From contig NC_065872.1 in assembly GCF_933775445.1 (NCBI RefSeq), positions 9,300,001 through 9,364,000 of the forward strand: a DNA stretch of 64,000 bases, read 5' to 3'. Each line of letters begins with the position of its first letter. Position 1 is the stretch's first letter. The position numbers were made by a program, and so were the translations under genes. The notes under the pieces were generated by a model, which saw only the letters and a program-made list of their open reading frames with translations, was not told the DNA's origin and made no database searches. The DNA comes from Argentina anserina (taxonomy: Eukaryota; Streptophyta; Magnoliopsida; Rosales; Rosaceae). Of the stretch, positions 3,977 to 60,106 are shown in pieces.

Positions 3977-5295
3977 TCACCGAGGTATAATAGGCTTGAA
4001 CCACTTGCAGATCTTGATATACTTTGATTTTCGTCCAATTGGATCAGTTGGCTTTCTCTCAGATTTTACTGGCTCCACTAGTAGTATTTCGGCATAGTAA
4101 TGCTTCCTTAATTTCGTGACCAAGCCAACGACATCAAATCCGTCCCCAATCACCTCTATTTGGTCCATGTCTCTTTTTATCGACGAACTGTAAACACCTG
4201 TTCAATTGAATCACGAATTTCTTTAGTTTTTCTTGGTCTAAAATCACAAATTAATCAATTCAAAATAGGTATATGCAAGCAGCTCATATTCTCTCTGTTT
4301 TAATGGGAATGCAGACTTCAAAATCTTTGATTGAGGGGTGAGGCATACCATGGATACCTACTACAAGCTTCAAAGCTTTGCTTCTGCTTCTTTCAGAGTC
4401 AAGTGACACTTTCACAACAATTCTTTTCACCATCTGGTATGAAGTTGTCACTAGTTGTCCGCCGTTAATCTCCAGTTGATTGTCAGAACCTCTGTAGTTT
4501 GAGCTTTCTAGAGGAGAAGGAAGGTGACCACTTGAGCTTCCAACTTCTGAATGTGGAAAGTCATTACAGTCGTTTGGTAAACACACTTCAGGGATGACTG
4601 ATGAGGCATATTATATTTGGAAGATCAACTACTCCAAAATGGGAAACTTTTGCTCTACAAACAAATAGAATACAGGAAGGAAGTTCCAAAATTTAGAAGT
4701 TACCTTGTATCTCACCCTTACCATGGAATTGCTGAAGATCTGTGCTAGTCGATGCGATGTTCCTTACTGAATCCAAGGTCAGTATGTGATGGAGTGCTTC
4801 CTGTGGTGCAATATTTAGCAGTCCTGTAGTTGAGAGCAAGCTCCCATATCCATCCCTGCAAGGTTCCTGATGCAAAGTCAGTCTAATTAGCAAGATCTGC
4901 ATCATGTGTCGGGTTTCCTTCACGTCTCTTATCGACTGCATCTTCAGCCTCTTTTCCAATATACTTAGTGACCTATTCAGGCCAGCAAGTTGACTGATGT
5001 ACAGAGAATCTATCCGATTCCATAGACAAGCATCAGAGAGTTCACTGATGATTCTTACTCCCTTGTTCAGTTCTTCTTCAAGAGCTTTCACATCCTCGTT
5101 CCGGAGACCCATTGCCTCGTTATGCCTCCCTATCTGTTGGATGACTTCTAGATCGAAAGACTCTAGAGTCAACTCGAGAGCTTCGAGTTGAGCTCTGAAC
5201 TTTGTAGTCCTGCCCCTCAGTTTCTTGACGCCTTCATACAGCGCTGTGAATACAGTTCCTATTCCAGCCCCGATAAACCACCCAGCCACTTCCAT
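3977..5295 (-). CDS. RPW8-domain protein fused to a degenerate HMA domain
   Basis: Three exons: 5295-4704, 4597 (or 4585)-4349 and 4197-3977, giving about 353 or 349 aa. Two tandem acceptors 12 bp apart at the second exon keep the frame. Residues 1-150 match the RPW8 fold: an N-terminal hydrophobic segment (AGWFIGAGIGTVFTALYEGV) followed by long amphipathic helices, as in the RPW8 mildew-resistance proteins and the CC-R domains of ADR1/NRG1. Residues from about 252 to 325 match the plant HMA (heavy-metal-associated) fold: RIVVKVSLDSERSRSKAL, then IEVIGDGFDVVGLVTKLRK and AEILLVEPV. The CxxC metal site is replaced (SERS), so metal binding is unlikely. The linker is Ser/Gly-rich. Splicing with donor 4348 and acceptor 4198 restores the HMA core across the intron. 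RPW8 proteins act at membranes in defence; a decoy or guard role for the HMA part is inference. A cDNA is needed to settle the exon joins. Confidence 0.75.
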
Positions 5296-5499: not shown

Positions 5500-6666
5500 T
5501 TTCCTTTGTCAATGTCGGCTGGTTCATGCTAATCTTATGGGGCTCGTGCAACGTCTTACGGGGAACGCACTTCTGTTTAAGTTGTGGGAGTATCGGGCAC
5601 TTATTTGTGAGTGAAGGCTGGGAAGACAAAGTTGATGACACTATCCGTATCGAGCTTTAAGAGAGTGGAGTAAGAGAAAAAGTGGGGGAGTCCCAAGTGC
5701 TACAAGAGAAGTAGCGAAAGAGAGATTACTATGATCAGGCAAGAGGCCAAGAATGAAAAGGGGTGAATCAAGGCAGACTAGCTCACAAATGACGACCGAG
5801 AGAGTGTCGGGTGCTCATGCCACACCAGAATTGTAAGTCCCAAGGTGGGACAAGTTGAGAATGAAAAGGGGACTCTAGATAGTTGCGCGTGTGCAGAGGG
5901 TCCAAGACTTATATGCTAGTCGGAAGACTTCCAAGAAGGCAAATGCGTGTATGCTGGATGTCTTGCCTTGATGATGGTGCAAATCCCAAGCGAGGAGCTT
6001 AAGAAGCAAAGCCGGAAATGCTATCAAGGAAGCCGGCATAATCAGTAGAGCAATGAGAAAGGCGTGCGAGGGTGGAATGATAAACTCTAGATGGCTTATG
6101 CAAGAGTGAATGTTGAAGGTTGTCTTTGGCCAAGTTCACAACTGGGCACAAGTAGGTTGTGAAGACATTGTCATTTGCCAAGTTCACGAATGGGCGTGAG
6201 AATGTTATGACAAAGGCGTGTCATTTGCCAAGTTCATGAGTGGGCGCGAGAAGGTTGTGACAAGTCATGCACTAGCCAAGTTCATAGGTAGGCACGAGAA
6301 GGTCGTCACGAGATGTGATTCCAAGATTGGAAGGACAACATTAATTGAATCAAGTATGATTTTATGCAAGCCTATAAAGCAGTGTGAAGCAGACAAGAGT
6401 TGCACGTCAATGAAGGACATTGACATTAAGTGGGGGAGGATGTCACGCGCTGCACTCAAGGTTAGTGCAGGCGTCTGTCAATGAAGGGCATTGACATTGT
6501 AAGCGGGGGAGGGTGTCACGAGCTGTACAAATGGTTGTGCCATCATGACACTTCTTAGGGGCTATGCCGAAGAGAGAGTGTCAAACGACAAGCATGCGGG
6601 CTAATTAGTGGCATGTCCAAGTGGCAGTTTTGTAATTAAGATGAACTTCTAAGTTCCAGACACTTA
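5500..6666. repeat. Decayed repeat region upstream of the RPW8-HMA gene
   Basis: GC-richer than its surroundings, without introns or recognisable protein, and rich in GAGAATGAAAAGG-like phrases. It resembles the non-coding body of an old retroelement, but no LTR pair, primer site or polymerase frame was found. It appears to continue after the Harbinger-like insertion at 9086, since the two flanks join at the TTA target site. Confidence 0.35.
6126..6315. repeat. About four degenerate ~50-bp tandem repeats
   Basis: Four copies of a unit with the core GCCAAGTTCA, then GGGC(G/A)(C/T)GAGAAGGTTGTGA, begin near 6126, 6174, 6224 and 6273. The copies differ by substitutions and small indels. They lie inside the decayed repeat region. 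The open frame across them (6218-6484) only reflects the repetition and is not called as a gene. Confidence 0.6.
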
Positions 6667-12656: not shown

Positions 12657-15600
12657 TCAAACAGGAATGGTCTTCAGGAAAGCAGCAATTGGCATCCCTA
12701 AAAAGCCAATGAAGACAGTAACAAACCATTGACACAAGGTGAGAGGTGCTGTGCTAGCAAACTTCCCCAGGAACTCAATAATAATGATTTGGAAAACAAC
12801 TGTGGAACCGAGGACTGCAACAAAAACGTAGTTATCCAATATGCCCTTGAAAACATCTATTTCTTCCATCTCACGCGAGCTTATCTCGTTAAACACCTGA
12901 AAATAATTATCATTGTTACCTTTGAATGTAAACATTAACTAAAGTGAAGTAACATGGTATATATGAGAACTTCACATACCTGACAGAAGACGAACGTATT
13001 GAAAATGAGTGTGTTTAAGATGACATGAGAGTTTGGTCCATCAAGACGAAATATTGATTCTCCTTTTGCCTGAAGAAGCCAAATTACTGTAAATTGATAC
13101 AAAGACTGCCCTAAAATATTCCTCCACATTACATTACTGATGAAATTTTGCCTCTTTCCAACCGGCGGACGCTTCATTAAATCATTAGTTGGAGGCTCAG
13201 TTGCAAGTGCAAGTGCTCCTAGAGTGTCCATAATCATGTTCACCCACAATAGCTGAACAGCAGTGAGGGGAGCACTACCTGGAAAATTGTGCAGGAGAAA
13301 GAAAACATGCATCAAAAACGTTTTCAATGATGTAGATAAAAGGAAGGTGAAACTGTGAAAGCCATAACAGAATTGCACAGAATATGTGAGTGAGCATGCT
13401 ACCTGTTAAACAGGCTGAGGAGAAGTTGACAATCAATGCGACAATATTAACAGTCAGCTGGAACTGCACAAATTTTTGAATATTGATGTAAACTGAACGT
13501 CCCCATTTTGCCACTGTAACAATTGTTGAGAAATTATCATCTAGAATTATAACATCAGCACTCTCCTTAGCCACCTGAAAATAGGAAAGGTAATTGAGGT
13601 AGAAGCACATAAAAAGAAGCATGTAGTTTTGCACTTGCATGTCCTTTACTCACCTCAGTTCCGGCAATGCCCATAGCCAATCCTATATCTGCCTCATGAA
13701 GTGCAGGGGCATCATTTGTTCCATCACCAGTTACAGCAACGACCTCATCAAATGTGGTCCTCAAGTGCTTTACCAGGGTATGCTTGTCTAAAGGCGATGA
13801 TCGCGCCATAACCTACAGCAGGAACTCAAATTTTAGTGTTACATACTAATATAATTATACTCGGTTAGGCCTAAACTGTAAATGTTTAGGAACTTAATTC
13901 CTCAAAAAGAAAATAAAGTTCACCTGAATTTTAGGAATCAGTGAAAGCAGTTCTTCTTGACTCTTCTCCCTGAACTCCGGGCCTTCAATGGCTACTCCAT
14001 CATCGGTAAGAATCCCACATTCCCTTGCTATGGCCTTTGCAGTGTGGATATTGTCTCCTGTAACCATTCTTACTGTGATACCAGCTGAACGGCAAACTGC
14101 AACAGACTCCTTGACACCAGGACGAACAGGATCTTTAATGCCAACAATTCCTATGCATGTATATCCAGAAGTTGGAATGGGATCCTCTGCCGAGAATTTG
14201 TCTAATTCCATATATCCAAGGCATAAAGTTCGAAGAGCCTCACAAGCAAAATCATTGATAGTAACTTGGAGATGCTTAATGGATGATTCATCAAGAGGAA
14301 CAGATTCACCACTTGAATTCATCACCTTATCACAGTTTGCCAATATAATTTCCGAAGCACCTTTTGTGTGTGCTCTAAAACCTCCACCTTCAGGCAGCTC
14401 CAACACAACCCCCATTCTTTTCTTTGTTGAGTTGAAAGGCTCAACTTTCACAATTGTAGAAGCTTTTCTCTCGGCTTGAAAGTCTCCACCAAGTGCCAAG
14501 CCAAACGCCAACAAAGCAGTGTCGGTAGGTGTTCCCAGCATCTCATTCTTGCCACCTTTGTTAACCACAACTTCTCCACCAGTGTTGTTAAATATGGATT
14601 GCAGCAAAACCTTCTTAACAGATTCCGGAAGATCAGAGAACAAGCTTGAAGCATCACTGAGGTTGCTCACATCTTTGACATTCATGCAAATGCATGACTT
14701 CACAACAGTCATTTTGTTGGTAGTCAGTGTCCCAGTTTTGTCACTGCAGATGTTGGTGGCCGATCCCATAGTTTCGCAAGCTGCTAGATGACGAACAAGT
14801 GCCTTATCATTCATCATTTTCTTCATGGCAAATGCAAGGCTCAATGTCACAGCCAGTGGCAACCCCTCAGGGACAGCAACAACAACAATTGTAACGGCAA
14901 CAGCAAAGAACTCTAGCAATTTCATTGCATCATCTCCATTCCAGCTCCAGTGAGTCCCTTCGCTCAATTTTTGACTAAACAGTCCTTGCACCATAACAGC
15001 AAAAGTCACAACAGCAAAGAAAAGTCCTATCTTACCAATGATGGTTGCGACTCCATTCAACTTGACCTGCAATGGGGTTTCATCATCTCCGCCTTCACTA
15101 AGTGTAGCCATCAATTTGCCCCATTGAGTTCTCATCCCAACTGTGGTAACCATCATCTTACATGAGCCATCTTGAACCTTCGTTCCAGAAAGAAGAAAGG
15201 GATTTTCTGGAGTTACCATAATAGGCTCACTCTCACCAGTTAAACTGGATTCATCAATCAAGACAGAAAATCCAGATACAAACAGACCATCTGCAGGTAC
15301 TTGGTCTCCAATAGAAAGGTGTACAATATCACCAGGAAGTAGTTCATATATAGACATTTTGTGCCTATATCCATTTCTTGTTACTTGCATAGCAATCTTT
15401 TTCTTCTCCTTGTCCAAGTCCTTGAACTGTAGTGATTGGCGATAATCACTTGAAGCTGTGACAAACACCACCAACATAATACTGGCAACAATTCCAAGCC
15501 CATCATGAGCTCCAACTGGCCATCCTTCCATTGCTATCCCAACAATCAGCGACACAAAAGCACACACTCCAAGTATCATAAGAGTCATGTCCTGCAGGGC

Positions 15601-17052
15601 TTCCCAAATAAATACAAAGAAACCACGCTGTTCACTCTCTGTAAACTTATTGATGCCGAAAAGCTCTTGTCGTTGAGTGTGCATATCAGTTTCGGTATTA
15701 AGCCCATCTTCTACTGATGTGGACAGCTTTTTTGTAAGGCCACTTACCCCTCCATGAAATTTTAGCTTCTTCACATCATGGCCTTCCACAATGGATCCCA
15801 ATTCATCAGCACAGATCTCAAAACCCGCCGCTTTAACTTCCTGAGGTAGAACATAGTCACTTGGTTGTACACCTGCATCCAGAAACCAGGAATTTAGAAT
15901 AAGCATGGTCATCACCATATAATGTGATGATACTGTTTGTATATCTCTATACTGAATATTCTCACCCTGAATAAATTGAAATGCAGCTTTAGATACCAAA
16001 ACTGCAATCCTCAATTTCTCCTACAAAATGAAAGTCACGAAAGATATCAGTATTTAGTTGAAAAAATGCATGGCAGAACTTACAATTCATCCTCCTAAAC
16101 CAAATCCATTACTCCACTTCTAAGTCTAGCACCATATGGAAGACATAAAAAAAAACAACACACCTCTCCATTTGTGAAAGTATATTACAAATTAAATTAC
16201 AGTAACCTAAGAAACAATATCCAGAGGCATAATTTTTCATGACAGTTTATAAATTATAACAAAGTTATAACAAATCCAATATATTGAAAAGCTTTGCATT
16301 TTTTTACTATACAGAGTAATTTGTCATCATGTCTATAACCAATAACTGCCCGTCTATAAATTACGGGTTCTGGGTTCTGCTCTACATTGAAGTATGTCAT
16401 ACATATAATAGTGTGTGGTGATAGAATGGGGTGTCATAACATGCACGAGGGTGTGTGTGGTAGTGTGTGGAGGAAAAAACTAATGCATGCTATACAGCAG
16501 TCTAGGCTAGAATTTTCCATAAATTACTGTAAAATCATCATATCAGAACATGCGTTTGCCATTGACTTGTGAATTAAGAGCAAATAATATATTTGTGGCA
16601 TCTATCTTCTTGGTCTGTTTTATTTTTTTGGGCCATTAAGTTGACTGAGGACTAGTTGATGTTCTTTAAAAATACCCTTGAGAGTTGAATAAGACACAGA
16701 CTACGACATGACCGCGCACAAAGTAAACCAAAGGATTTTCCCATCTTTGATATATTGAACTTTGACGTTCTGGTAATTATGATATCATATAGTGTATCAT
16801 ATCCATTTGAATCACTCAAGAACAATGCACAGAATTACTAAGGATGTATTAAGCTGATATATATATATATATATATACCTGATTGGTACGGCGCATAGCC
16901 GCGGCCTCTATACGCTTGGAAAGATTAGCAGTGAAGCGAAACCTTCTTTTTGGGTTCTTCACTACTCCACAAAGCTTCCTCCAATTCTGCAACGTCTCTT
17001 CAGACGAACCCTTTGGCTTCACCTCCCCAAAGTTCTGCAAATAACTCTCCAT
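12657..17052 (-). CDS. ACA2: Autoinhibited Ca2+-ATPase (type IIB P-type), ACA1/ACA2 group
   Basis: Seven exons: 17052-16879, 16020-15966, 15872-13924, 13812-13654, 13574-13403, 13278-12980 and 12896-12657, joining in phase to 1015 aa, the usual length. It pumps Ca2+ out of the cytosol (ER or plasma membrane in this group). The N-terminus holds the calmodulin-binding autoinhibitory region ([12 protein letters not shown], about residues 36-47). Visible P-type motifs are TGES, the PEGL membrane motif, the phosphorylated aspartate in CSDKTGTLT (near residue 450), KGAS in the nucleotide site and the hinge [17 protein letters not shown] (near 755). The C-terminus ends LKTIPV, as in ACA1/2. The exon plan fits Arabidopsis ACA2. 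All key residues are intact. Intron 1 begins directly with a (TA)n run. Confidence 0.95.
16856..16877. repeat. TA microsatellite at the 5' splice site of ACA intron 1
   Basis: An (AT)n tract of about 22 bp. On the minus strand the exon ends ..AATCAG and the intron reads GTATATATAT onward, so the donor site is the first unit of the repeat. Length changes would alter the bases just after the donor. Confidence 0.8.
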
Positions 17053-33836: not shown

Positions 33837-34847
33837 ATGGCTTCTGGTGGTTCTGAAATTGTTGTCACTGATTCATTACCAGTGAGAACTGAATATGTTG
33901 ATGGAGGTTCTAATCAAAGTATTGTTGCCACCAGACTTAATTAGTTCAATTTCTTGAATTGGTCGAGGAATATGGTAGTTGCAATCGGAAGAAGATCCAG
34001 GATAAGTTACATCAAAGAAAACAAGATTCCAGCTATTGGTTCTGAAAACTTTGATAAAGAAATGAGCAAGGATCAACAAGTTCGAGCTTGGATTCTTAAC
34101 TCTATGGAGCCAAGCATTGCAGAGGTTTTCAACTACCATGAGTCTGCATATGACTTATGGGAAGCATTAAAAGATTTATATGGAAGCATCAACAATGCTG
34201 CACGAGTGTTTCAACTTCAGAGGGACCTTTTTGAGCTTCAACAAGGTACAAACTCTTTTGTCCAACATCTTGGTATTATGAAGTCAAAATGGAATGAGAT
34301 CGATCAACTTAGGCCTTTCTCTACTGATGGAGCTGTTCTAAGAAGGAGGGCTGATGAAGACAAAGTCTTCCAACTCCTAACTAGTCTGGGATCTGATTAT
34401 GAACACTTAAGGAGCTACCTTATGATGAGTTCTGAGTTTCCAAGTCTTAACACAGTAACTACTGCTGTTCACAAAGAAGAAACACGCAGAAAAGTCATGA
34501 ATGTTGAAGTATGGTCTACAAGCAATGATGCAAGAGCATTTGCTGCAAGCAAACCTGCTACAAATAATAGAATGTACAAAGGGAAGAGACCTGATCTGAA
34601 GTGCACACACTGTGTGTCAATTGGGAGAGCTGGCATTGGCCACCAAAAAGAAACATGTTGGATTCTTCATCCAGAATTGAAGCCTAAGTGGCATGAAGAT
34701 CATAAAGGACAAAAAGCTTTAGCACACAAGTCAACTCTGAAAGCAAATTTGAATAGTGTCACTGAGCATATGGGTAACTATACCTCAAATCCAATCTACT
34801 TATCAATGCATTTGCTGAGTTTATTCAAAGCAAACAAGAAGGTGTGA
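33837..34847 (+). pseudogene. copia gag, broken
   Basis: Starts at ATG 33837, has an in-frame TAG at 33942-33944, and continues open in the same frame to a TGA at 34845-34847. It contains the UBN2-type capsid region (WILNSMEPSIAEVF, LWEALKDLY, LQRDLFELQQG) and a zinc-knuckle remnant (CTHC, then HQKETCW) with extra residues between the second Cys and the His. The reading frame of the polymerase part overlaps it from about 34790 in another phase, so a one-base indel lies near 34790-34810. Normal copia elements have one frame here. Confidence 0.88.
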
Positions 34848-37800
34848 GAGACAGTGAGGATGCAACTGCTATGCTTGGGAAATTTGCTGGTTTTCTGGAA
34901 AACTCAGACCTTGCTCCAGAAAAAGATATCCCAGGTATCATTACTGCTTTTTCTACGGCTTTAGATGTTAGTAAAAATGGTGATGTTTGGATAGTAGACT
35001 CAGGTGCCTCAGAACACATAACCAACAATTCCTCAAATCTCAGTGATTTTAAAAAACTTACTAAACCCTCTCATGTGTCAATTGCAAATGGACATTCTGT
35101 GCAAATCTGTGGAAAAGGAAAATTAAAAGTTTTTTCAAATATCATTGAGTTATATGTGTTGTTTGTTCCCACATTCCATTTTAAATTACTTTCTGTTGGA
35201 AAATGCACTCAGATATTAGATTGTCTAGCCATTTTCTCACCTCATAATATTATTTTCCAGGATCGTACCACAAAAACAAAGATTGGTGAGGGATTCTTCC
35301 TAAATGGACTATATTTCATCTCCATCACTGCACGTCTGTCAACATGTTTTTTAATGAACTCCAAGTCAACATCTCAGCAACTGTTGTGGCATAATCGACT
35401 TGCTCATCCCTCATTTCCAGATTTATCAAGACTGTTTCCTCATTTTTGTAAAATTGCTAGTGAGTGTGAAATCTGTCATATGTCCAAACAGACTAGGATT
35501 CCTTTTTCTCTTTCACACTCAAGAGCAAGCATGTCTTTTGAGCTTGTTCATTCAGATGTATGGGGACCGGCCTCAGTGAATTCCTTTGATGGATATCGTT
35601 TTTATGTAACTTTCATTGATGACTTCTCTCGTTCCACATTTGTGTATATGCTAAAATACAAAAGTGAAGTGTTTAAGTGCTTTCAAGATTTTCTTAATCT
35701 GGTCAAAAATCATTTTTCTTCCAAAATTTCAATTTTAAGATCTGATAATGGCACTGAGTACACTTCTAATACCATGACTAATTATCTAAGTGAACAAGGA
35801 ATTATGCATCAAACTAGTTGTATTGGCACACCACAACAAAATGAAATTGCAGAAAGAAAGAATAGGGATTTATTGGAAAAAGCTAGAGCCTTACTGTTGC
35901 AGAATCAAGTTCCTAAGAGATTCTGGTCACAGGCAGTCCAAACAGCAGCGTACTTAATCAATAGGTTGCCTAGCAGTGTTCTTGATTTTAAATCACCATT
36001 TGAAGTTCTTAAAGGCAGGAAGCTGGATATTAGTCATCTCAGAGTTTTTGGCTGCATCTATTATGTGCATGTTCAGGCAGATAAAAGAGATAAATTGGAT
36101 CCAAGATCAATTAAATGCATGTTTCTTGGATATTCATCTACACAAAAAAGGTATAAATGCTACAATCCTACAACTAGGAAAATCTTAGTATCTCGAGATG
36201 TTATTTTTCATGAAAAACATCCTTTTTACTGTGAAAATGATGAACAACTTAAGGGGGAGTTTCTCACAGATTTATTTCCCTCTTCAACGTCAACTGAAAC
36301 TACAGAAGATGTTGATCAATGTCTAACCTCAGAAAAAACAGTAGAATGTATTCATCGTGAAAATAGTGAACTGAAAGTAGCTGTTGATGAAGAAAGTCAT
36401 GACTCCATAAATCGCCCTACTTCTCCTAGTTTGCCTAGGAGAAATCCTCCTCGAAATAGAAATCCTCCTGAGAAGCTGCGAGATTATGTTACTTACTCCA
36501 CTAGGTATCCACTAAATCTTGAGCTCACAAAATGTCCTCCAGTTCATTGTGCATTTCTCAATAAAATCCTTGCAGATCGTGAACCAAGGAGTTTCTCTGA
36601 TGCAATTCAAATGCCACAATGGCAGAAAGCTATGAATGAAGAATTACAAGCTCTTGATGATAATCAGACATGGAGCATTGTACCTCTCCCTCGTGGTCAG
36701 AAACTTGTGGGAGCAAGATGGATTTATAAGCTCAAATATAACTCTGATGGATCTCTTGAGAGACATAAAGCTCGACTGGTCGCTAGAGGGTTTACTCAAA
36801 CATTTGGCGTTGACTACAAGGAGACTTTTGCTCCAGTGGCCAAAATGAACACTGTTCGTGTTCTTTTGTCTATTGATGTGAATTGTGGTTGGTTCTTGTC
36901 ATAGATGGATGTCAAGAATGCTTTTTTGCATGGTGAGTTAGAAGAAGATGTTTACATGAAAATTCCTCCAGGCCACCCTCGAGAGCATGAAGGTGGGATG
37001 GCTTGCAAACTTCACAAGGCTCTATATGGATTGAAGCAGTCACCTCGAGCATGGTATTCAAAACTCAGCTCAGTGCTTCTGTCTTCTGGATTTCAAAGAA
37101 GTCACTCTGACTCCTCCTTGTTTGTAAGAAATAGCAAGGTTGGAAAATTGGTTGTGTTGGTGTATGTTGATGATCTAATTGTTGCAGGTAACAATTCTGA
37201 TGAGATTCTATCACTCAAGAAGGCCCTACACGATTCATTTGCTATTAAAGACCTTGGCAAATTGAAGTATTTCTTAGGCATTGAAATGGATCATTCATCA
37301 CATGGATTGTTCTTAAATCAGCGCAAATATGTTATTGACATGTTAGAAGAAACAGAAATGACAGACTGCAAGCTTGCAAAAACTCCATTAAGCAGCAAAA
37401 TTGATTTGGACACCCAAGCTCCTGCTCTTCACGATGTAAGTACATATCAACGTCTTGTGGGCAAGCTGATTTATCTTACGATCACCAGACCTGATTTAAC
37501 TTATGCTGTGAGTTTGGTAAGTCAATTCATGCAATCTCCCAACTCATAGCATCTTGGCCTTGTCAAACGTATCATGCGATATCTCAAAGGTTCATTCAGT
37601 AGAGGCATTGCAATGCAGAAGAATAATCATTTTCAAATTGTTGGGTATTCTGATTCTGATTGGGCAGGAAATTCGTTGGATAGGAAGTCCACTACCGGGT
37701 ACTGCACCTTTGTTGGTGGCAATCTAGTTACTTGGAAGAGTAAGAAGCAGTCTGTTGTAGCACGAAGCAGTGCAGAGGCAGAATATAGAGCCATGACCTC

Positions 37801-38116
37801 TATTGCTTGCGAGTTAATCTGGTTGAAAGCCTTGTTGCAGGATTTGGGACTTCATCATTCATCTCCTATGATGTTGTATTGTGATAATCAAGCTGCAGTG
37901 CACATTGCTGCTAATCCGGTTTTTCATGAACGCACCAAACATATAGAAGTCGATTGCCATTTTATCCGAAATCAAGTGCAGACCAAGGTCATTGAAACAT
38001 TGTATACCAAGTCATGTGATCAACTTGTATACATCTTTACCAAGATTCTTACCTCGACACAGTTTGATCGTCTTCTTTCCAAGCTTGGATCAAGATATTC
38101 CCTCGATCCAGCTTGA
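34844..38116 (+). pseudogene. copia pol (protease, integrase, RT, RNase H), broken by two TAG codons
   Basis: One phase runs 34844-38116 with stops at 36902-36904 and 37547-37549. In order: protease with the DSG active site (WIVDSGASEHIT), the pre-integrase HNRLAHP zinc region, the integrase core (DVWGP, FIDDFSR, SDNGTEY), reverse transcriptase (KARLVARGF, then [10 protein letters not shown] and the catalytic YVDD) and RNase H (YSDSDWAG, SSAEAEYRAM, YCDNQAA). Each TAG sits where a sense codon is expected; the first replaces the residue just before the conserved [10 protein letters not shown]. Catalytic motifs are otherwise intact, in keeping with recent loss. Confidence 0.92.
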
Positions 38117-50714: not shown

Positions 50715-53700
50715 ATGGGGAAGAAGCAGCACAGCAAGGACCGAATGTACCTGACCAAAACGGAGTGGGCCACCGAATGGGGCGGCGCCAAGTCCAAGAT
50801 CGCCACTCCCTTCAAACGCCTCCCCTTCTACTGCTGCTCGTACTCTCTCTCTCTCTAGAAATTTCAGCTTTGATTTTGAACCCTAATTGAGATTATGAGC
50901 TCGCTTTCCGATGCAGGCTGACGTTTGTGCCGTTCGAAGACCCGGTCTGCACCGCCGACGGCAGCGTTTTCGAGATAATGTGAGCTTTTAAGCTGACTCT
51001 GGTTCGGATTTGGAAGCGCATTTTGATTATGCTTGGGATTAATGTGTTTTGGTGCAGGAGTATAGTGCCGTATATCCGAAAGTTCGGGAAGCATCCGGTG
51101 ACCGGAGCTCCGTTGAAGCAGGAGGACCTCATTCCATTAACGTTCCACAAGAACAGTGATGGTTTGTGCTTGTTTACTTTACTTATGTTTACGAGTTTCG
51201 CATTTGGTCGGAGAAATATGGAGTTGGAATTTATTGCTAGACCGGAAAATGAGGTGTAGGAGTTGGAATTAAAGTGAAATTGGAACTTAGACTGTAGTTG
51301 AGTTTTGGTAAAGGATCGAGTTATGAGCCTGTTATAGACTAATTGTATAGGTGCAGCGAGTGCTTTTTAAGACCATACTATTAGGTGGTTCATATACACA
51401 TGCGAAAGCATGAGCCTGTTATTTGGAGATAAGTTGTTTAGTTGCTGCGAGTCATTTTGGTACGGTACTTTTAGTAGGTCATTGGAAAATGATCCTGAAG
51501 ATATTGATTGGGAAAGTCCTATTATGTGGTGTGGTACTAACTGTGTTCCCAGATTTTGAGCCATTGTTCAAGCTTTTTTTTTCATTTCACTAGTGCAAGA
51601 TATGTGCTAAGGAGGAAATCTGAAAGTCTATTGATTTCGAACTGTGAAGTTACCTCATATCTAATTAGAACTTATCTCCATTATTCCTTAGTTCAAACCA
51701 AGATTGATGGGACTTAGGAAATTGTTGTATTAATATCTGAATAGTCAATATGGCTTCTTCAGTTTTCTGATAGCGAATATGTCTGTGTCATTCAAAGTAT
51801 CACCATCACTCCCTTCAAACCAATATTAACTGGACTGGGATTTGTGGAGGCCATACATGTTGGATGGTACAGATGTAGGTGGAACTAACATCTACTTGAA
51901 TATCTCAAGCCAATAGAATTGGATGGATATTTCTAATCAAACAATATTGCTCTGGTTTCTAATCTTTTTGGGTGATAACATCAGCATAGTTTGCTTATTG
52001 TTTTCCTGTTTCTGTATAGGCATGTGAATCTGTTAGCAGTATGAAATTTTATTTGATTTTGCTAGTTTTATGATTGTGTCCTTATGGTTCTCTAGTTAAG
52101 TCTTTTGCTTTGTTATTGTGTATTGGTGATTCAGTTCCTTCTCTTGCTTCTTGTGCAGGAGAGTTTCAGTGCCCTGTTTTAAACAAAGTCTTCACTGAAT
52201 ATACGCACATAGTTGCTGTGAAGACGACAGGAAATGTCTTTTGCTATGAGGTTGGCTATCCTTCTGTTATGTAAAGTTAGTTATCTTGAACTCTTGTAGC
52301 GTATATTTTAATTTCTCTTAAGATAATGCGACTATATTGTAAGCTCCTCTTATCTAACCTCCAATTCTTTTGCTTTTCAGGCAATTAAAGAATTGAACAT
52401 CAAGACCAAGAACTGGAAGGAGCTCCTCACAGATGAACCATTTTCTAGGGGCGACCTGATAACCATTCAGGTATACATACTTCTTCTAGTCAAATCTTGT
52501 TTCGTTGTGTCAAAATTTTGCAAGTTATATTCTTCCTTGTGTGAATATTCACAATTCTATATGGATGCACTTTGCAGAATCCGAATGCACTCGACAGCAA
52601 AGTTCTTGTGGAATTTGACCATGTTAAAAGTGGTTTAAAAATTGATGATGAAGGTGAGCTACAGACTTCTTTGTTAAATGGGTCAGCTGTACACTTAGTT
52701 CTTTTCTAATTGTTGTTGCCCGTTAATTTATTTACTCATCTATTTTTCAGAGTTGGACCGAATGACTTCTGATCCAACCTATAACATAAATGTAACTGGC
52801 GATATCAAGCAGATGCTCAAAGAGCTTGGAACTGAGAAAGGAAAGCAAACTGCACTGCATGGTGGTGGTGGCTCAAAGGCCCAAAATGAGCGGGCTGCTG
52901 CACTTGAAGACATTTTAGCCGCAAGGGCTCGCATTAAAGAGGATCCCAAATCAAAATCAAATGGGGAGACCCCTCAGGCATACAGTATTGTAGATGCTGC
53001 TTCTGCTTCAGTACATGGAAGAAGTGCTGCTGCTGCTAGAGCCACATCTAGTGATAAAACTGCTGCTCGAATAGCTATGCACAAGGCCGGTGAAAGGGCA
53101 CCAATCAATGCAAAGATGGTTAGTAAATTCTATTTCCAACTTTTTGTACATAACATTACAAGTTAAGAGTCTCCTTATGATTATTGATATAACTTGGGTC
53201 TTCTCTACATGATTTAATTTAGTATCAATATTACTATCTTTCCTGCATTGGGGTTTTTTTTTGCTGTATGTTGATTTGACACACATATGTAATGTAGGTA
53301 AAGAGCAAATATACCACTGGTGCTGCTTCTAGATCCTTCACTTCTACTGCCTTTGATCCTGTCACTGAAAATGAATTTGAGTATGTCAAAGTTGAGAAGA
53401 ATCCAAAAAAGAAAGGATATGTACAGCTTCATACAACACATGGTGATTTGAACATCGAGCTACACTGTGATATAACCCCCAGAGCTTGTGAGAACTTCAT
53501 CACACTCTGTGAACGTGGTTATTATAATGGAGTAGCTTTTCATAGAAGCATCAGGTATATTGAAATTTTAGTTCTGTAATAACTTCTAAATTTACTCTAT
53601 TTAGCATAATCTTATAGATTCATCGTTATCTTTTATGTTTAGGAATTTTATGATCCAAGGTGGTGATCCTACCGGTACTGGGAAAGGTGGTGAATCTATA

Positions 53701-54715
53701 TGGGGAAAGCCTTTTAACGATGAATTAAACTCTAAGTTAGTTCACTCTGGAAGAGGTGTTGTTAGTATGGCCAACAGTGGCCCTCACACCAACGGTTCCC
53801 AGTTTTTTATCCTTTACAAATCTGCAAACCATTTGAACTTTAAGCACACAGTTTTTGGTGGAGTAGTTGGGGGCCTGACCACACTGGCAACAATGGAAAA
53901 AGTTCCAGTTGATGATGATGATCGACCTTTGGTATGTTCATTATGTTCTTAGTTCTGGTTCTAGACTAGCCTTCTGTATATTGTTGGTTCTGTTTATCTT
54001 TTTATAAACATATAGTATAAGTTTAATTCAAGCTTGTTGATATGTTTGTGTGTGCGTCTAGTTTTGTGTTTGTGCACCTGTCGATGCATATGGCTGGATA
54101 AATGTCCCTATAGTTTGTCATCATGTGGATGTGCATCTAGTTTTGTGTTTATGCACCTGTCCATACATACGGCTGGATGAGTGTCTGTAGTTTGTCATCA
54201 TGGGCCTCGATCATGTTGCTCAGTGTAATAATAATTTGCTGAATCACAAGATTTTCTGAATTAAGATCAAGGCTAGGGAGTTCCAAGGCCTCACTTCTTT
54301 TTTGTTTCTATGGAGCAGGAGGAAATCAAGATTACAAGTGTTACAGTTTTCGTTAATCCATATACAGAACCTGATGAAGAGGAAGAAGAGACTAAAGTGA
54401 AGGAAGTGGAGGATGAAGATAACGTTTGTCACTTAGACCTTGTGCTTTTCATATTCCATTTCTTCTTTTACAATAAATCTAGAACTAATTTTCTGTAACT
54501 TTCAGGATAAAGTTGGGTCTTGGTATAGCAATCCTGGTACCGGAACAGCAGGATCCGGTGTTGGTGGTGGCGGTGGCGGTGTAGGGAAGTACTTGAAAGC
54601 TAGGAGTGCTCTACCAGAATCAGCTATTGTTGACGCTGGTTCGACAGAGTCTGCTGTGCCGAAGAAAAGGAAATTGGCTTCCGCTGGAGAATTCAAAGAT
54701 TTTTCCTCTTGGTAA
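50715..54715 (+). CDS. CYP65: U-box/cyclophilin protein CYP65 (PUB49, PPIL2 orthologue)
   Basis: Eleven exons: 50715-50839, 50917-50979, 51058-51161, 52159-52250, 52381-52470, 52578-52653, 52751-53118, 53298-53554, 53643-53931, 54319-54423 and 54506-54715; 592 aa, close to Arabidopsis CYP65. It joins an N-terminal U-box (about 35-110: [37 protein letters not shown]) for E3 ubiquitin ligase activity to a cyclophilin domain (about 347-495: [54 protein letters not shown]). The catalytic Arg in FHRSI is present; the cyclosporin-contact Trp is His here (SANHLNFKH). The tail has an acidic run, a Gly-rich linker and KKRK. The human counterpart is spliceosomal and nuclear. Confidence 0.96.
54052..54201. 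repeat. Tandem ~79-bp duplication in CYP65 intron 9
   Basis: Two copies starting TG(C)CTCTAGTTTTGTGTTT-like at 54053 and 54131, both containing GCACCTGTC, GGCTGGAT and TAGTTTGTCATCAT. They differ by several substitutions, so the duplication is not new. It lies within the intron and does not touch splice sites. Confidence 0.8.
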
Positions 54716-58591: not shown

Positions 58592-60106
58592 ATGGATACC
58601 TTGTTTAGGCTAGTCACTCTTCAACAACAACAGCAGCAACAACAATCTGAACAATCTTTCAATTCATCCACCAGAACCACCACCACCACTTCCAGCAGCT
58701 CCAGATCCTTCACTCACCACCCGCAGCACAACCATCACTACCCCCAACAAGACGACGTCGAAGAATGCTTCAACTTTTTCATGGATGAAGAAGACTTCTC
58801 CTCTTCTTCTTCTAAGGCTCACTACTACCCCACCCCACCAACTCCGACCCCGCCTCCTCCGCTTACCACCACCACTCCCACTCATACCGATTTCTCCTTC
58901 TCTCCCGCCCACGACCTTCTCAACTTCGAATTCTCCTCCCCTAAGTGGGCCCCTGACCTCCTCTTAGAAACCGCCCGGGCCATTGCTGACAAGAACAGCG
59001 CAAGAGTTCAACAGCTCATGTGGATGCTCAACGAGCTTGGCTCTCCTTACGGCGACACCGATCAAAAGCTCGCCTCCTACTTCCTCCAGGCCCTCTTCAG
59101 CCGCATGACCGAATCCGGAGACCGCTGCTACCGCACCCTAGTCTCTGCCTCGGAGAAAACATGTTCTTTTGAATCCACCAGAAAAATGGTCTTGAAATTT
59201 CAGGAGGTGAGTCCATGGACTACATTCGGTCACGTCGCTTGTAATGGTGCAATTATGGAAGCCTTCGACGGTGAGGCCAAGCTTCACATAGTCGACATCA
59301 GCAACACTTACTGCACGCAGTGGCCGACTCTACTGGAGGCGCTCGCGACCCGAACCGATGAGACCCCGCATCTACGTCTCACCAGTATCGTCCTCAGCAG
59401 AGCTGGGGACGGCTCCGCTGGCGTTGGCGCCACGCAAAAAGTAATGAAGGAAATTGGCGCCAGAATGGAGAAATTCGCGCGCTTAATGGGAGTGCCGTTC
59501 AAGTTCAATGCCATCCAGCATTCTGGTGACCTAGCGGAGCTCAACTTGGCAGATTTGGATGTCAGGGACGATGAGGCCTTGGCCATAAACTGCGTTGGAT
59601 CGTTACATTCAATCGTGGCCGTCGGAAACCGCCGTGATTATTTGATCTCCGCTTTTCGGAGTTTAAAGCCGAGGATCATAACTGTTGTGGAAGAAGAGGC
59701 TGACCTAGACGTCGGAGTTGACGGGTTTGACTTCGTGCAAGGGTTTCAGGAATGCTTGAGGTGGTTTAGGGTTTACTTCGAGGCTCTAGACGAGAGCTTC
59801 GCTCGGACTAGTAATGAGAGGTTGATGCTCGAGCGCGCGGCCGGCCGAGCCGTCGTAGACTTGGTGGCCTGTGCCCTGCCGGACTCCGTCGAAAGGCGTG
59901 AGTCAGCCACGCGCTGGTCAAGACGTATGCATGGGGCCGGGTTCAGTCCAATTTCATTTAGTGATGAGGTGTGCGATGACGTACGGGCCTTGTTGAGGAG
60001 GTACAAGGAAGGGTGGTCAATGACGCAGTGTGGTGACTCCGTCGCCGGAATATTCTTGTCGTGGAAGGACCAGCCGGTGGTTTGGGCAAGCGCTTGGAGG
60101 CCTTAA
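58592..60106 (+). CDS. SHR: GRAS transcription factor SHORT-ROOT
   Basis: A single intronless frame of 504 aa. The start [14 protein letters not shown] followed by Gln/His, Ser/Thr and Pro-rich runs is the typical SHR N-terminus. The GRAS domain fills residues 120-504: first Leu heptad ([17 protein letters not shown]), VHIID-like [20 protein letters not shown] (231 onward), second Leu heptad, PFYRE-type and the final SAW motif ([19 protein letters not shown]). SHR is made in the stele, moves one cell layer outward, binds SCARECROW and sets endodermis identity and ground-tissue divisions. The NTYCTQWPT stretch corresponds to a region known to matter for movement. A five-codon uORF sits directly upstream. 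The low-complexity N-terminus varies between species and fits expected length. Confidence 0.96.

Follow-up and report, generated by a model that had tools for sequence, protein, structure and literature searches.

An RPW8-HMA gene without NB-ARC or LRR in Argentina anserina, and how its protein might work

Can the HMA domain that serves plant immune receptors of the nucleotide-binding leucine-rich repeat (NLR) type be joined to an RPW8 domain with no NLR around it? The question is raised by a three-exon gene on the minus strand, at 3977-5295 of a 64,000-nucleotide stretch of the silverweed Argentina anserina (hereafter the window; C1:9300001-9364000 in an assembly of 236.8 Mb and 146 contigs, which was the genome searched here). 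Its spliced translation equals, letter for letter, the closest protein to it, the annotated (predicted) protein LOC126805054 of Argentina (Potentilla) anserina, 336 residues long and called P0001 below. This is a real gene of three exons, with the anatomy as annotated, and its product combines RPW8 with an HMA and has neither NB-ARC nor LRR. An initial annotation, made from the DNA letters, had the limits of the gene right, and the spliced product bears out its order of one RPW8 exon followed by two exons in phase.

A protein search returned five sequences: P0001 and four nameless relatives, P0002-P0005 (source label lgn), which we read as coming from public read assemblies. The gene can be laid out as follows (the coordinates of the two HMA parts and of SERS were counted by hand).

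4704..5295, minus strand: exon 1, beginning with the start codon and running through residue 197 and one further base; it holds the RPW8 domain followed by some 64 residues of tail, from the spliced translation equal to P0001
4897..5271, minus strand: RPW8 domain (CC-R type), from a profile match
4547..4703, minus strand: intron 1, GTAACTTC...ACATTCAG, 157 bases, GT...AG; passed over by the frames of P0002, P0004 and P0005
4349..4546, minus strand: exon 2, a linker of about 38 residues and the first part of the HMA, from the spliced translation
4349..4430, minus strand: first part of the HMA (from residue 237), from a profile of HMAs of the same genome and a phmmer match to 7b1i_B
4386..4397, minus strand: SERS (residues 248-251) where the metal site CxxC would stand
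4198..4348, minus strand: intron 2, GTATGCCT...TTGAACAG, 151 bases, GT...AG; it has the position and phase (G|GV) of the HMA intron in HIPP-type genes elsewhere in this genome
3977..4197, minus strand: exon 3, the second part of the HMA, a C-terminal tail without CaaX box, and the stop codon at 3979-3977
4064..4197, minus strand: second part of the HMA (to residue 308), from the same profile and phmmer

Does the RPW8 exon really continue into the HMA? The acceptor that gives the annotated protein is 4546, so that intron 1 joins 4704 to 4546; the acceptors first proposed, 4597 and 4585, leave open frames with an exon-2 end at 4358, but their products differ from the annotated protein (that of 4597 carries 17 extra residues and lacks IHG). 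The exon-2 end that fits is 4349, and with it the HMA core is indeed rebuilt across a GT-AG intron, as VVGIHG|VYSSS. An earlier end of exon 1, at 4722 (CATG|GTAAGG), also keeps the frame open, but it is used neither by P0001 nor by the three relatives that pass over intron 1. In these three (P0002, P0004 and P0005) the last residues of exon 1, GEIQ or GDIQ, lead directly to the linker (EVGSSS or GVGRSS), as they do in the window once intron 1 is spliced, and the three probably come from spliced transcripts. P0003 runs into intron 1 (GNF...), like the window left unspliced, where the product is RPW8 only and ends in GNF-stop. One could suppose from such an ending, which retention of intron 1 would place right after RPW8, that two separate genes, an RPW8 gene and a HIPP remnant, were merged by annotation. 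We regard this as very improbable, given that three relative sequences go from exon 1 to the linker without the intron and two of them, P0002 and P0004, have the start of an HMA after the join.

The family match of the RPW8 part is clear. RPW8 (PF05659) scores 48.2 bits against a curated cut-off of 30.4 in a Pfam scan of P0001, and a profile search of the genome finds it above cut-off at 4897-5271 of the window (E 3.6e-11, 50 bits). The N-terminus is hydrophobic and glycine-rich. RPW8 is the sole Pfam family for P0001 at E <= 10, in agreement with the initial view of the protein as NLR-free, and P0001 does not combine NB-ARC and LRR in one protein, as an NLR with an integrated domain does. Among the 123 of 338 genome NB-ARC candidates that were scored, none lies in the window, and the nearest on the same contig is about 0.8 Mb off. 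A Foldseek search with the model of the whole protein returned no match at E <= 0.001.

The HMA part requires other means. The domain scan suggested at the outset gives a split answer: RPW8 passes Pfam, whereas the HMA stays below the curated cut-off of PF00403 (12.9 vs. 24.8 bits), and PF00403 is absent from the Pfam listing for the whole of P0001. Compared with four aligned HMAs, PF00403 matches three, and weakly (best E 0.0014). A profile built from three HMAs of the same genome, with the window sequence left out, nevertheless gives P0001 66.3 bits over residues 239-308. The C-terminal piece of 105 residues alone, compared by phmmer with the chains of solved structures, matches 23 distinct sequences at E <= 0.001. 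The best is OsHIPP19 (7b1i_B, 78 residues; E 3.2e-13 over chain residues 4-77), followed among others by a reconstructed ancestral Pik-1 HMA (E 1e-10) and the NLR HMA 6fu9_A (E 7.8e-10), which we take to be Pikm. Other matches are named Pikp-1, Pikh-1, RGA5 and sHMA; the integrated HMA of Rmo2, presumably a barley tandem kinase, matches weakly (E 6.6e-4). The structure 7B1I is given, in the part of a 2025 review that deals with it, as AVR-PikF with OsHIPP19 (PMC12835825). Identity of the window HMA is 37/72 with OsHIPP19 and 37/72, 32/72 and 28/72 with three loci of its own genome (L011, L012 and L014), which were chosen for their similarity to it, leaving aside the others of the 19 PF00403 matches in the genome. 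By sequence, then, the window HMA belongs to the group of OsHIPP19, Pik-1 and RGA5, domains of a kind to which fungal effectors bind in rice, and the early likening to Pik-1 and RGA5 stands.

The initial annotation also made much of lost metal-binding cysteines. SERS does stand at the place of CxxC, with LDSERS instead of M/LxCxxC, but the loss is not special to the fusion: the three compared HMAs of the same genome also lack CxxC (L011 has DEKS, L012 SEKR, L014 SEKC), as does OsHIPP19, and cysteine loss as a hallmark of the fusion is thereby ruled out. The table of the 2025 review lists MPCEKS for OsHIPP19 and MVDDKS for Pikm-1 (PMC12835825), and the relatives have GDKC (P0002) and SDKC (P0004) at this place. 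An incomplete metal site is a trait of this HMA group rather than a change that came with the fusion. The other mark of a HIPP, a C-terminal CaaX isoprenylation box, is absent from the window protein, which ends in KPIIPR. L011 and L014 end in CSIM, and the open frame of L012 is without CaaX.

Where did the HMA come from? The donor of intron 2 is at the same place, G|GV, in the window gene, L011, L012 and L014 (for L013, a further HIPP-type place, the script printed another), and the acceptor is at the same place in the window gene and in all of L011-L014, whose splice sites are our reading of the sequence rather than annotations. Since the HMA intron has the place and phase of the HIPP type, a HIPP-type gene was captured at the DNA level, intron included. 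A retroposed HIPP copy is ruled out, as the intron was retained. L012-L014 form a cluster of HIPP-type HMA genes at C3:32.94-32.99 Mb, in which the acceptor is placed as in the window gene.

Is there a second gene of this kind? The HMA piece, used as a protein query of the genome, gave six matches. Two of them are this gene; the other four, three on C3 and one on C6, are places of the HIPP type, and no genome RPW8 match lies near any of the four. With P0002 as the query, HMA similarity was found at the window gene only, and the gene as a DNA query matched only itself. Twenty stretches, each 7-10 kb long and taken from the surroundings of RPW8 matches, contained 22 of the 36 such matches whole; of the remaining 14, one is the window gene, one is split over two stretches and twelve lie outside. 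Over 49 sources (the window and L001-L048), a profile of four HMAs, that of the window among them, found only the window gene and L011-L014, and the linker and tail occur nowhere else. No second RPW8-HMA gene was found by these searches, with twelve RPW8 matches outside the fetched stretches. Beyond the genome, residues 225-336 as a region query returned P0001 only. A search for relatives of the HMA alone gave one candidate and no match, a weak absence since HIPP-type proteins are common in plants.

What would such a protein do? We consider an NLR-free protein made of a bait and an executor the best explanation, with a probability of roughly 0.4. The HMA would be a bait resembling the host HIPP proteins that effectors bind, and the part that is active on membranes and brings about cell death would be the RPW8 bundle, together with its hydrophobic and glycine-rich N-terminus. 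An effector bound by the HMA may set the RPW8 portion free or bring copies of it together, and this portion could then act on the membrane itself or trigger an RPP7-like NLR, as the Arabidopsis RPW8/HR proteins do. With the lipid anchor lost and the RPW8 N-terminus gained, a surface like that of HIPPs would be carried to the membranes on which RPW8 proteins work. In its fullest form, the proposal is of a one-protein NLR-free immune receptor, with a Pik/OsHIPP19-type HMA bait wired to an RPW8 executor, in which effector capture clusters the membrane-active bundle and the bait diversifies fast among silverweed relatives. So complete a scheme we hold to be rather doubtful.

Several observations weigh against a working bait. 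P0002 and P0004 share the exon join and the HMA start, but none of the four relatives shows a complete HMA. The profile of own-genome HMAs finds the first part only in P0004 (27.1 bits) and P0002 (24.2 bits) and no HMA in P0005, and P0003 is absent from its match list; P0004 ends within a stretch resembling intron 2. The first HMA part is also poorly kept: between P0001 and P0002 identity is 95/130 in RPW8, 26/38 in the linker and 10/29 in the first HMA part, and between P0001 and P0004 it is 83/133 in RPW8 and 11/28 in the first HMA part. The drop from P0001 to P0002 would fit a fast-changing sensor and a decaying tail equally. These same facts, together with the RPW8-only product of a retained intron 1 and the reading of P0003 into that intron, speak for a captured fusion with a real but drifting transcript, in which RPW8 works and the HMA tail is neutral or being lost. 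We think this somewhat unlikely: the window HMA is open and complete over residues 239-308 and shares half its residues with OsHIPP19, so that a long neutrality of the tail is hardly to be expected.

Alternatively, the HMA could serve for regulation or addressing: as a surface derived from a HIPP, it would bind the partners that HIPPs usually have, or sites such as plasmodesmata, and so position or restrain RPW8. Several HIPPs, including OsHIPP19, are located at plasmodesmata according to the review's account of them (PMC12835825), and the relevant passages of PMC6684095 discuss a regulation of RPW8/HR and MLKL by the sequences that follow the bundle. On the other hand, the localization of AtHIPP07 and HvHIPP43 to plasmodesmata was impaired when CaaX was mutated, as told in the same account (PMC12835825), and the box that L011 and L014 have is missing here. 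This role seems to us unlikely.

Elsewhere in the window, no immune gene cluster was seen among the 20 other open frames scanned. Seven of these have Pfam matches: two to a P-type cation ATPase (gene at 12938-16020, minus strand), three to a Copia-type retrotransposon, one to cyclophilin (an exon at 53605-53949) and one to GRAS (58592-60103, an open frame of 504 residues, presumably SCARECROW-like). The retrotransposon spans 33945-38113 and has open frames that match gag, integrase and reverse transcriptase; its last frame, 37550-38113, is included as a listed open frame without Pfam scan. Upstream of the RPW8-HMA gene, at 6121-6311, are four 45-base repeats at a spacing of 48-50 bases, three being 62-89% alike to the reference copy.

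How does the protein compare with known systems? The Arabidopsis RPW8/HR proteins (RPW8.1, HR4) share with it an N-terminal potential membrane segment, a predicted RPW8-type coiled-coil bundle, no NB-ARC, and a variable part behind; unlike it, they carry repeats of their own (21 or 14 residues) and a short tail instead of an HMA. In the sections that treat them, they are said to resemble MLKL and HET-S, with the C-terminal repeats and tail going with RPP7-dependent hybrid necrosis (PMC6684095). The segment that separates RPW8 from the HMA in P0002 has, within residues 148-229, two occurrences of a 25-26-residue unit (LTLDPVSDIASTSTVLQQIHSNGEI and a variant), which recall these C-terminal repeats.

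Closer in taxonomy are the RPW8-X fusions of strawberry, also Rosaceae, where RPW8 without NB-ARC is joined to another domain (RPW8-Pkinase_Tyr, RPW8-IQ) in a species counted as having 58 RPW8 genes; the partner, however, is a kinase or IQ, and the main text of that survey contains neither the term HMA nor heavy metal (Zhong and Cheng, 2016, PMC5039405). The rice NLRs Pik-1 and RGA5 have an HMA of the same sequence group with a degenerate metal site, but theirs sits in CC-NB-LRR receptors, and neither NB-ARC nor LRR was found in the window protein. The HIPP/HPP proteins (OsHIPP19, L011, L014) have a similar HMA without CxxC, and L011 and L014 share the HMA intron; these two differ in that we read each as a gene of its own with CSIM at its end, whereas the window protein has an N-terminal RPW8 and no CaaX. 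Tandem kinases such as Rmo2, weakly matched above, and RPG1 also place an HMA in a resistance protein that is not an NLR, but join it to a kinase pair rather than RPW8; RPG1 is described in the review's passage on tandem kinases as HMA-pseudokinase-kinase (PMC12835825).

There are thus precedents for both partners, RPW8 fusions on one side and HMA integration on the other. The RPW8-HMA pair was not found described in the literature searched, with most subscription journals and all of bioRxiv outside it: neither of the strings RPW8-HMA and HMA-RPW8 turned up, and no such protein is named in the titles listed or in the passages seen of PMC5039405 and PMC12787737.

HMA-like domains are effector targets, serve as bait in NLRs and are also present in tandem kinases, as the review puts it where it introduces them (PMC12835825), and within NLRs and tandem kinases the HMA is likely an effector bait. 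If silverweed has attached such a bait to RPW8 and nothing else, this would show that no NLR is needed for a sensor domain to drive an RPW8 executor. It would also indicate that effectors target HIPP proteins in Rosaceae, and the activation of RPW8 proteins could be dissected in a receptor of very small size. A survey of integrated domains that takes NLRs as its starting point would overlook a gene of this kind.
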